Positions 2,083 to 39,203 of a stretch of 39,203 nucleotides of DNA are shown here, one piece after another. The notes under the pieces were generated by a model. That model was not told the origin of the DNA, searched no databases, and was given only the letters and a program-made list of their open reading frames with translations. This stretch comes from Sulfurovum sp. (lineage in GTDB: Bacteria; Campylobacterota; Campylobacteria; Campylobacterales; Sulfurovaceae). The translations under genes were made by a program, and so were the position numbers. Position 1 is the first letter of the stretch. Each line of letters opens with the position of its first letter. The stretch spans positions 1 through 39,203 of the forward strand of contig JAQUFB010000004.1 in the NCBI GenBank assembly GCA_028684885.1, read 5' to 3'.

Positions 2083-4064
2083 GTACCTTCGTTACTTTGC
2101 TCTGATGCACTCTTTTGGGGTTCTTCTTCGCTTTTTGGTTTATGTGCAAGACGGCTTGGCAGATTGTGCTCTTTCTCATACTCATCAATGATCTTCTGGA
2201 CAGTCGTTCCTTCGATCACCTCCACGTCCAGCAGTTCGGCAGTCATTTTCTCTATCGCGCCATGATAGTCACGAAGGGTCTGTTTGACATATTGGTAATG
2301 CTCTTCAAGTGTGGCTTTGATATGTGTATCGATCGCCTCGGACATCTTCTCGCTGTACTCGGTGACCGCACCCGCTCCGCCGAGAAAACTGTGTTGGCTT
2401 CTCTTGAGTACCATAAGCCCCGCAACATCACTCATACCATACACCGTGATCATATCTTTGATGATCGCTGTTGCACGGTCAAGGTCATTGCCCGCACCTG
2501 TACTGATCTCTCCGATGAATACCTCCTCGGCCGCACGACCGCCCAGGAGCACATCGATCTCGGCAAGCAGTTCATGCTTTTGCTTGAGGAACCTGTCCTC
2601 TTCGCTTGGAAGATGAAGCGTATATCCGAGCGCACCAAGTCCTCTCGGAATGATCGATACCTTGGTGACACGTGTCGCACCTTTTGTGAGTTCTGCCATA
2701 AGGGCATGGCCGCTCTCGTGGTAGGCAACGATCCTCTTCTCCATGTCCGAAACTTTACGGTTTTTCTTCTCCAGTCCGACGAAGCTTCTCTCGATCGCTT
2801 CAAGCAGGTCAGATTGGTCGATCTGCTTTTTGTTGTTACGTCCTGCAAGGAGGGCTGCTTCATTGATGATGTTTGCCAGATCTGCACCCGCCAATCCCGC
2901 TGTCTGCTTGGCGATCACTTCCATATCGACTTTGCTGGAGAGTTTTACATCTTTTGAATGCACTTTCAGGATCGCCAGACGCCCCTCATAATCCGGTTTG
3001 TCTACCAGTACCTGTCTGTCAAAACGTCCTGCACGCAGCAGCGCCGCATCGAGTGTCTCGGGCCTGTTGGTGGCAGCCAGTACAATGACCGGAGTATCCG
3101 TACCGAATCCGTCCATCTCTGCAAGCAGCTGGTTGAGGGTCTGTTCCCGTTCATCATTTCCGCCCATCTGTCCGCCGCTTGCACGGGATTTACCGATCGC
3201 ATCGATCTCATCGATGAAGATAATGGACGGCGCTTCCTTTTTTGCCTGTGCGAAGAGGTCGCGTACACGGCTTGCCCCCACACCGACGAACATTTCGATA
3301 AATGCCGATCCGCTGACAGAGAAGAACGGTACTTCTGCTTCACCCGCAACCGCTTTTGCCAGAAGCGTTTTACCTGTACCCGGAGGTCCCACCAGAAGCA
3401 CCCCTTTGGGGATCTTCGCTCCCAGCTCCATATAGCGTTCAGGGTACTTAAGAAAGTCAACGATCTCTTTGACTTCATCTTTTGCCTCTTCAACCCCCTG
3501 AACATCGTCAAATTTGGTATTTGGCTTTTCAGAGTTGATCAGCTTGTCCGCTTTGCCGGCACCCAGGATGCCTCCGCCCATCCCTTTGGACATTCTTCTC
3601 GCCAGGAATATCCAGATGGCAAAGAAGATGATGATCGGCAGCAGCATGCTGAACATCTCGGCAAAGAAACCGTTCCCGATCACACCCTCGTATCTGATCC
3701 CTTTCTCTTCAAGAAGGGGAATGAGATCCCTGTCCAGTGCCGGTACATTGCTCGCACTGTAGCGTGTTTTTGCACCATTTGGCGTAGTGATGATCGCTTC
3801 GATCGTGCTTGAGGCGATCTTGACACTCTCCACATTGCCTTCTTTGATCTGCTTTTTGATCTCGGAGTAGGTGACGCGCTTGTTCTGTGTGACTTGTTGA
3901 TCTCCAAGAACATTCCCCAGCCCTTCGCCTCCGCCGTCGCCTACCATGACCTTGAAGATCATGATCACCACGATGGAGAAGATCGCAAATGCCAGAAGGG
4001 GGTTGTTGTTAAAAAAATTGTTGTTCTTGTTGTTGTTATCGTTATTTTGATTTGGATTAGCCAT
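2067..4064 (-). CDS. ftsH: ATP-dependent zinc metalloprotease FtsH
   Basis: [22 protein letters not shown] Walker A, SRH, HESGHA zinc motif; Asn-rich N-terminus. Confidence 0.97.
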
Positions 4065-5582: not shown

Positions 5583-5686
5583 TTGACACCTCGTGTCAAA
5601 TGAAGTGAGGAGTGAGGAGTGAGGAGTGAGGAGTGCAAGTCGCTTCGCTCCAGTGAATAGTGAATAGCGAATAGTGAATCGTTCAT
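5579..5686 (-). CDS. Putative 35-aa ORF formed by heptad element B, coupled to hisA
   Basis: ATG...TGA reads [44 protein letters not shown] just after the hisH stop; TGA overlaps the hisA ATG (ATGA). Confidence 0.4.
5580..5602. repeat. Perfect 10-bp palindrome over the hisA start codon
   Basis: CATTTGACAC-ctc-GTGTCAAATG. Confidence 0.85.
5604..5680. repeat. Heptad element B: TGAGGAG x4, core GCAAGTCGCTTCGCTCC, then GTGAATA-type x4
   Basis: TGAGGAG at 5606, 5613, 5620, 5627; GTGAATA at 5653, 5660, GCGAATA 5667, GTGAATC 5674. Confidence 0.95.
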
Positions 5687-5695
5687 GGTATTTCC

Positions 5696-6307
5696 TTATA
5701 GCTTTACAAAATTTTCTATGATCTTGAGGCCGTTTTCATGGCTCTTTTCGGGATGGGGCTGGATGCCGAAGATATTGCCGTTCTGTACTGCTGAGACGAA
5801 CGGGTATCCGTAGTGCGTCTTTCCGATCGCATACGCGTCATCGCAGACTGCATGGTAGGAGTGCACGAAGTAGAGGTAGAACTCTTTTGGAAGCCCTGCA
5901 AATATCGGTGTCTCTTTTTGTACGAAGAGCTCATTCCAGCCCATATGCGGTACCTTGTGCGGATGGTCAAAGGCTGCTTCATCGAAAGCCACGACCTTGC
6001 CCGGGATCAGTCCGAGCCCTTCATTGGGACCGAACTCTTCGGAGCTTTCAAAAAGCAGCTGCATCCCCAGACAGATCCCCATCAGCGGTTTGCCTGAAGC
6101 CGCATAGGCCTTGACCGCTTCATCCATACCATTGCGACTGAGGTGCTCCATCGCATCACCGAAAGCACCGACACCCGGAAGGATAAGCTTCTCATACTGA
6201 TCCAGTTTAGAGGGATCACTCTGTACTTCGATCTCGGCACCTACACTTTTAAACGCATTGATGACCGAGGCGAGGTTGCCCATATTGTAATCGACGATTC
6301 CTATCAC
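5696..6307 (-). CDS. hisH: Imidazole glycerol phosphate synthase subunit HisH
   Basis: [48 protein letters not shown]. Confidence 0.96.
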
Positions 6308-28413: not shown

Positions 28414-28437
28414 TTGTATGAGCTTGGGCTCATACAA
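28414..28437. repeat. Perfect 10-bp palindrome directly after the rho stop
   Basis: TTGTATGAGC-ttgg-GCTCATACAA. Confidence 0.85.
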
Positions 28438-28593
28438 AGTGAGGAGTGAAGAGTGAAGAGTGCTGGTATGCTTTTCTTGCGAAAAGCTTTGATTGAAAAG
28501 ATTGCAATAGAAGTTTTACAGTGTAAAGCATACTTGAACTCCCCACTCCTTACCCCAAGGGCACTTGTCACTTCGTTCGGGCGCACTCCTCGT
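28438..28593. repeat. Heptad element C: GTGAGGA/GTGAAGA left array, structured core, inverted GAGGAGTG right arrays
   Basis: AAGTGAGGAGTGAAGAGTGAAGAGTG on the left; CCCCACTCCTTACCCC and GCGCACTCCTCG (inverted) on the right; internal inverted pair TATGCTTT/AAAGCATA. Confidence 0.85.
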
Positions 28594-38523: not shown

Positions 38524-38916
38524 ATGGCAACAAGACACCAAGCACGGGCAGCGGTAGTGGGTCTGCTCTATGCCTATGATCTGGGCAACGAAAATATCGC
38601 CAAATTCTCAGATGAGATTTTGGAAGAAGACAAGATACGTAACAAACAAAGAGAGTTCTCTAACGCTCTTTTTCACGGGACAATAGAGAATCTCGAACTG
38701 ATCGATGAAGAGATCAAGAAGCATCTCAAAGAGTGGGATTACCATGGGATCGGCAAAGTAGAAAAGGCGATCCTGCGACTGGGCGCCTATGAGATACTGG
38801 TAGCAAAGACCGACAGAGCGATCATTATCAATGAGGCTGTGGAACTCGCCAAAGAGCTGGCAGATGACAAATCACCGAAGTTTATCAACGGAGTTTTGGA
38901 CGCTGTAGGAAAATAG
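38524..38916 (+). CDS. nusB: Transcription antitermination factor NusB
   Basis: MATRHQARAAVVGLLYAYDLGN; INEAVELAKELADDKSPKFINGVLDAV. Confidence 0.96.
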   Translation: MATRHQARAAVVGLLYAYDLGNENIAKFSDEILEEDKIRNKQREFSNALFHGTIENLELIDEEIKKHLKEWDYHGIGKVEKAILRLGAYEILVAKTDRAIIINEAVELAKELADDKSPKFINGVLDAVGK

Positions 38917-38930
38917 CATTTTCTTATCGC

Positions 38931-39086
38931 AAATTAATAATTCATAGTGAATAATGAATAATTATTGTAGGCATTGCTTTGCAATGCTTTTAGAAATAAG
39001 GAGTGATGGTTTGAATTTTATTGATAAAAGTGTTGCAGTGCAACACAAACCTGAATTATTAATTATGAGTTATAAATTATCAATTA
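38931..39086. repeat. Heptad element E: inverted TAATNNA arrays flanking a two-hairpin core
   Basis: Left (+): AAATTAA TAATTCA TAGTGAA TAATGAA TAATTAT. Right (-): TAATTGA TAATTTA TAACTCA TAATTAA TAATTCA. Core hairpins GCATTGC-ttt-GCAATGC and GTGTTGC-agt-GCAACAC. Confidence 0.9.
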
Positions 39087-39112
39087 AAAAACTCCAGAGG
39101 AGTCATGTATGA
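38954..39112 (+). CDS. Putative 52-aa ORF carried by heptad element E, overlapping the mqnC start
   Basis: MNNYCRHCFAMLLEIRSDGLNFIDKSVAVQHKPELLIMSYKLSIKKLQRSHV*; TGA overlaps ATG at 39109 (ATGA). Internal TTG at 39011 has AAGGAG 7 nt upstream. Confidence 0.35.
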   Translation: MNNYCRHCFAMLLEIRSDGLNFIDKSVAVQHKPELLIMSYKLSIKKLQRSHV

Positions 39113-39203
39113 GAATGAGTATCGATGAAGCGGTAGAACTGATCGAAAAGGCAGACCTCAAAACATTGGGCAAGATGGCCTATGCACGCAAGCAGGAGCT
39201 GCA
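39109..39203 (+). CDS. mqnC: N-terminus of probable cyclic dehypoxanthine futalosine synthase (truncated by window end)
   Basis: MRMSIDEAVELIEKADLKTLGKMAYARKQEL, resembling MqnC N-termini. Confidence 0.5.
   Translation, partial: MRMSIDEAVELIEKADLKTLGKMAYARKQEL

Follow-up and report, generated by a model that had tools for sequence, protein, structure and literature searches.

What is the repetitive element that separates nusB from mqnC in this Sulfurovum contig, and did it arise in place or arrive there from elsewhere? The window, by which we mean the whole stretch of 39,203 nucleotides analyzed here, carries at this point two hairpins enclosed by inverted arrays of seven-nucleotide repeats (heptads), a layout that the first-pass annotation likened to a MITE. 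We propose, with a probability of roughly 55%, that this element, here called E, is a REPIN-like pair of single-strand elements made of a repeat unit largely specific to one Sulfurovum clade, and that the cap hairpins at its ends are made or repaired via fold-back template switching.

Anatomy of element E

Both hairpins, GCATTGC-TTT-GCAATGC and GTGTTGC-AGT-GCAACAC, and the inverted arrays flanking them lie where the first-pass annotation had placed them (38931-39086), and NCBIfam models confirm nusB and mqnC as the neighbors, the latter via the ortholog in genome G016 (Table 1). It also holds that the ends are tandem heptads and not a defined terminal inverted repeat. The number of heptads, given as five per side, is revised to four followed by a junction of 6-7 nt, and the limits, which were right for the core, move outward to take in a cap hairpin beyond each array. 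What had been missed is that the repeat unit is one half of E and often stands singly, that its heptads are fixed at four, and that each end carries a locus-specific cap hairpin using the sequence of the flanking gene.

Table 1. Coordinates of element E, its parts and its neighbors in the window
Feature	Position	Strand	Remarks
Element E, revised limits	38905-39103		convergent (head-to-head) pair of one repeat unit
nusB, upstream neighbor	38524..38916	+	NCBIfam TIGR01951
Left cap hairpin TAGGAAAAT-AGC-ATTTTCTTA	38906..38926	+	built on the nusB end
nusB stop codon TAG	38914-38916		centre of the left cap hairpin of E
Left heptad array AATTAATAATTCATAGTGAATAATGAATAATTAT	38932..38965	+	four purine-rich heptads and 6-nt junction, 34 nt
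Left inner REP-like hairpin	38966..38993	+	foot TGTAG, stem GCATTGC-TTT-GCAATGC, tail TTTTAG
Left hairpin 1, stem-loop GCATTGC-TTT-GCAATGC	38971-38987		foot GTAG at 38967-38970
Spacer between the two units	38994..39024		AAGGAG-like motif; no ORF of note
Right inner REP-like hairpin	39025..39051	-	foot GGTTT, stem GTGTTGC-ACT-GCAACAC, tail TTTTA
Right hairpin 2, plus-strand reading GTGTTGC-AGT-GCAACAC	39030-39046		
Right heptad array TAATTGATAATTTATAACTCATAATTAATAATTCA	39052..39086	-	35 nt
Right cap hairpin ACTCC-AGA-GGAGT	39091..39103	-	contains the mqnC Shine-Dalgarno GGAG (39099-39102)
mqnC start, downstream neighbor	39109..39203	+	runs off the contig end; TIGR03699 on the G016 ortholog

The halves of E form 68-nt arms that are 71% complementary, and the folding of the strand beats 200 of 200 shuffles (z -3.8 as RNA, -4.95 as DNA). 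A covariance model (R1, trained on 44 units, with rough E-values) gave 53.8 bits (E=1.9e-9) to the right unit, which belongs to its training set, and 60.1 bits (E=6.5e-11) to the left unit, which does not; a chance origin of E is excluded by the latter score.

If E were a MITE, that is, a non-autonomous derivative of a DDE insertion sequence, its shortness, multiple intergenic copies and inverted symmetry would be accounted for. However, the outer ends of the copies are the caps, which differ at every locus and leave no common terminal inverted repeat, and half-units occur alone. No target duplication is present at the one site for which an empty allele was resolved (L292/L005 versus the empty L263/G029), in agreement with the annotation, which had seen none at E, and no parent transposase with matching ends was seen in loci covering about 2 Mb. 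The variable ends, solitary half-units and absent target duplication contradict the MITE reading, which we consider barely tenable.

A three-part unit in fixed register and its distribution

The unit reads, from the outside inward, as a cap hairpin, four purine-rich heptads that with a 6-nt junction measure 34 nt to the next hairpin, and a REP-like hairpin with a GTAT, GTTT or GTAG foot, a 7-bp stem and a loop of 3-5 nt, followed by CTTTTA. Many arrays lead straight into a hairpin starting GGTATGC, GGTTTGC or GGTAGGC and ending in the tail CTTTTATT. The foot is GTAT in most copies and GTAG in a minority that includes the left unit of E. Single units are common, often between a stop codon and the start of the next gene, and E is one of many inverted doublets with a short spacer. 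Among 42 units chosen for their array and foot, with no stem requirement, 34 pair at six or seven of the seven inner-stem positions (null about 6%) and 29 at all seven (null 0.5%); in units chosen for having a stem, 98.7% of cells are paired, with 62 double changes.

At a threshold of at least 20/21 matches, samples of G016, G036 and G000 (total about 1.7 Mb) contain 27, 17 and 22 period-7 arrays, respectively, and 0-4 arrays of each other period, multiples of seven aside. Exactly four heptads were counted in 61/98 model-found units and in 107 of another 149, taken from other genomes of the Sulfurovum group (72%), five or more being confined to 2/98 and 7/149; in 47 of the 98, the foot lies 34 nt from the start of the array. 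The model spans about four heptads, such that shorter arrays are under-found and longer ones are not penalized. These counts bear on the alternative that the arrays are plain slippage products, period-7 microsatellites grown beside unrelated hairpins, a process suggested for the heptameric repeats over-represented in many bacteria (PMC4679880, PMC4692102). The units do share with such simple repeats a tandem, intergenic 7-nt motif, but their copy number is not variable in the manner of slippage: it is sharply four, and the register between cap, array and inner hairpin is constant. Slippage as the origin of these units is contradicted by the count and the register, and we hold it to be very improbable. 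The heptads here are a fixed-length spacer within a repeated hairpin module, not free microsatellites. Long free arrays, such as those at L140, may be slippage products; longer heptad arrays (ACTTAGC, CACCAAT, GCGTTTA) at L140:2060-2183 and 3847-3952 and at L193:8000-9600 adjoin a repeated palindrome, CATGAC-TCT-GTCATG, and perhaps represent a second family.

Heptamers have been noted in many bacterial genomes as the most frequent of the long simple repeats, and their cause is not agreed. The heptads of Xanthomonas and Nostoc are intergenic, lie near gene ends, prefer four units and form 70-75 convergent pairs per Xanthomonas genome; they are G-rich (GGGAATC) and have been explained by G-quadruplexes (PMC4692102). 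The Sulfurovum heptads have no G-runs, yet four is again preferred, and the four-unit preference in Xanthomonas is thereby directly testable against a cause other than G-quadruplexes. We found no cap or inner hairpin in that report. The TAACTGA repeats of the Beggiatoaceae, also sulphur-oxidising hosts, are intergenic, provide stops in all frames and in some cases overlap the end of the upstream ORF; they differ in that a single invariant heptad is present 2-6 times, for the most part immediately before start codons, and we found no flanking hairpins in their description (PMC4679880).

By model R1, G001 holds 66 units, the host genome about 55, and G002, G009, G016 and G036 at least 85-90 each. 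Most species of one Sulfurovum clade carry between 14 and at least 90, with few elsewhere (range 0 to at least 90), and the copies are, as in REP/REPIN families, numerous and mainly extragenic. A pattern scan of species genomes returned mostly Sulfurovum, Nitratifractor and Campylobacterales records, matches in other organisms giving background scores with the covariance model. Carriage by phages was also considered and rejected, the 11 exact pattern matches in viral contigs being near chance by our estimate and none scoring well with the model. At L185:1505-1742 and L193:1275-1481, heptad arrays are interrupted by scaffold gaps (runs of N); it is probable that heptad repeats disrupt the assembly of metagenomes and are under-counted.

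Among about 30 Sulfurovum species, the nusB-mqnC site holds a heptad element in six, GTAG-type palindromes instead in about ten, and just 23-88 nt between the genes in about eleven. The same sequence at this site in all relatives, by which the first-pass annotation would have recognized an ordinary operon leader, is thus not what the nusB loci present. Since most relatives have nothing here or something else, we take E to be an insertion and not a conserved leader, and the annotation was right to treat it as an insertion-like repeat with many copies. Occupied sites are often shared: 7/8 and 7/11 (64-88%) are common to G016 and G036 and 4/5 to G000 and G016. Many are common to species that are only 74-77% identical, and recent mobility is therefore unsupported. 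The exception is G029, sister of the host genome and, in a tree of up to four genes, of G000 and G001; most of the genomes compared are metagenome assemblies. None of its 35 orthologous sites is occupied, though the genes stay side by side, and 400 kb of it (G029:C1:466001-866000, L367-L386) contain no period-7 array, no GTAGG hairpin and no Y1 gene; its relatives have 64-81 period-7 arrays per Mb. G029 may have lost its units, or its relatives may have gained theirs in parallel, and a sister without copies offers a natural comparison for the gain, loss and effect of the units.

The sharing of sites between G016 and G036 would also be expected if selection maintained the units as structured RNA or DNA that punctuates the space between genes, for example to protect transcript ends or to control translation, with compensatory evolution of the hairpins and with mobility incidental or past. 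Orthologous units keep their plan, and their cap and inner stems change yet stay paired (L197:2473 versus L137:16606); caps at gene starts contain the Shine-Dalgarno, and a role in translation has been proposed for the arrays of heptads close to start codons in Beggiatoaceae (PMC4679880). We nevertheless judge this explanation unlikely, given that G029 does without all of the comparable copies with gene adjacency intact, that the units adjoin unrelated genes, that their number varies so widely between species, and that no Rfam family matches at its gathering threshold (the best weak match, E 0.22, is far below its cut-off).

Cap hairpins built on host sequence

A cap hairpin of 6-16 bp, with a loop of mostly 3-4 nt, stands directly outside the array, in most cases at an offset of -1 or 0 and usually ending one base before it. 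About half of the units have a cap that adjoins the array and about half have no strong cap. A cap score of at least 7 was reached by 34% of 98 units as compared to 1.6% of random positions (Fisher 1e-26), and by 45% of the 149 further units as compared to 1.7% (Fisher p~1e-54); over all controls the share was 1.4-1.7%. No two sites have the same cap, and host sequence from a coding end, a start codon or a Shine-Dalgarno region commonly makes up one of the arms: for instance, the last nusB codons at E, the coaD start (GTGAGATCTGC) or the start codon in L137:16485. In G016 and G036, the orthologous nusB caps form perfect hairpins of 12-13 bp, each on that species' own nusB codons (arms GCTATTGGAAAA/TTTTCCAATAGC in G016 and GCAATAGGGAAAT/ATTTCCCTATTGC in G036), with matched changes in both arms that track the synonymous nusB differences.

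The window offers further cases. A second convergent pair, between rho and murI (28418-28562), has as cap the perfect 10-bp hairpin TTGTATGAGC-TTGG-GCTCATACAA, and G029 has no unit there. At 5584-5712, arrays of AGTGAGG and AGTGAAT surround GCAAGTCGCTTCGCTCC, with the cap CATTTGACAC-CTC-GTGTCAAATG; the orthologous G016 site (L199) holds a complete unit.

The L292/L005 site shows what changes when a cap is present. L292 and the host genome (L005) carry a pair, and L263 and G029 share an identical short junction without one; the flanks are about 91-92% identical, and this close-range reading concerns a single locus. The empty alleles read AAAGAGAATAGCTGATGG and the element alleles AAGCAAAATGCTGAGTGAATA, such that ATTTTGC pairs with GCAAAAT: the host arm ATTTTGC is unchanged, about eight array-side bases have become GCAAAAT, and the protein end KENS has turned into KQNAE. 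At the far end the entire cap is new, and a Shine-Dalgarno comes with it.

Template switching, a known source of new and repaired hairpins, makes changes of this kind at imperfect inverted repeats (PMC8794818). This leads us to propose, with moderate confidence, that fold-back template switching at the junction during DNA synthesis would make or repair the cap hairpin, and that its array-side arm would in this way come to repeat the neighboring host bases in inverted orientation. Alternatively, the matched changes in the cap arms might arise by compensatory selection. The caps, as many natural hairpins made from host coding sequence, provide a test bed for a template-switch origin of hairpins.

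The placement of the caps and arrays also bears on the neighboring genes. The Shine-Dalgarno lies inside 9/12 strong gene-start caps (seven in the gene-side arm, one in the loop and one in the array-side arm), and 17/33 units facing a gene end hold the upstream stop codon within the array. It is conceivable that a unit in a transcript would separate two cistrons, the stop of the upstream gene coming from the heptads and cap and the Shine-Dalgarno of the next gene from the far one; the stops in arrays and the Shine-Dalgarno in gene-start caps are consistent with such a separation. Selection for stops in all frames was rejected: all three frames are stopped in 77% of four-heptad arrays versus 67% for permuted heptads (p=0.35), no excess over what heptad composition predicts; among distinct units, 25/28 hold a stop versus 20.7 expected.

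Relation to REPINs and their transposases

The likeness to REP/REPIN sequences (PMC3116915, PMC3733652) lies in the short hairpin with a 5' tetranucleotide foot, the many intergenic copies and the frequent inverted pairs. REP palindromes measure 20-40 nt and have a 5' GTAG or GTGG foot. In contrast to these, the Sulfurovum unit has a foot that is mostly GTAT or GTTT, a 34-nt heptad array and host-derived cap preceding the hairpin, and no linked RAYT, and its presence does not follow that of Y1 genes. It might nonetheless be asked whether E is a classical REPIN mobilized by a resident RAYT (TnpA-REP). The paired inverted hairpins, short-looped and with a foot like GTAG, resemble the Stenotrophomonas REP (8 bp, 3-nt loop), the host genome encodes a REP-associated tyrosine transposase (NF047646, L097), and GTAG repeats and Y1 transposases are on record for Sulfurovum NBC37-1, in a report that leaves heptads unmentioned (PMC3733652). 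The RAYT genes that we inspected (Y1, 20 loci), however, are flanked by GTAGGG-type or other palindromes or by none, never by heptad units. G020 and G034, both about 100% complete, carry 41 and 22 units without a PF01797 match, whereas G017, G019 and G028 have five Y1 matches each and zero units. The GTAG foot, essential or important for REP cleavage in the systems tested, occurs only in a minority of copies. With gene presence not tracking unit number and the flanks being other palindromes, we rejected Y1/RAYT as the driver, and a classical REPIN seems to us quite improbable.

The IS200/IS605 elements offer another parallel: they have subterminal hairpins and 5' guide tetranucleotides and duplicate no target sequence on insertion; the Sulfurovum unit differs in that no transposase gene, fixed left and right ends or common target motif was found. 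No mobilizing enzyme was identified, neither Y1 (PF01797) nor reverse transcriptase (PF00078) tracking unit number, and reverse transcriptase was dropped as the driver on that ground. Loss of SbcD as a permissive factor was likewise discarded: most genomes, whether they have units or not, lack SbcD, which exceeds its cut-off only in G003 and G012 in a genus sample without G029.

Copies sit flush between genes, their sites are empty or different in relatives, and the three parts hold their register. On the REPIN-like reading of E as a pair of single-strand elements, the units would likely have spread, as REPs and REPINs do, in the form of single-stranded hairpin DNA, and thereafter passed mostly by vertical descent. 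None of the open-access papers searched was found to describe the composite unit. More speculatively, and with our doubts the greater, we suggest that it is a previously undescribed three-part element that on settling copies flanking gene bases in reverse as its own cap, that its mover is not a RAYT, and that the same principle might account for the preference for four heptads in Xanthomonas and other bacteria.

Two observations concern neighboring kinds of repeat. At 80-165 of the window, an array of (TTTTTAC) x 7.7 runs straight into a GTAG-type palindrome, GTAGGGGTGCGACTTTCGCCGCAC, so heptads accompany ordinary GTAG REPs too. At L252:2879-3045, a unit follows tandem copies of a 59-nt stretch comprising heptads, a foot and a different hairpin, which indicates that whole segments can duplicate.
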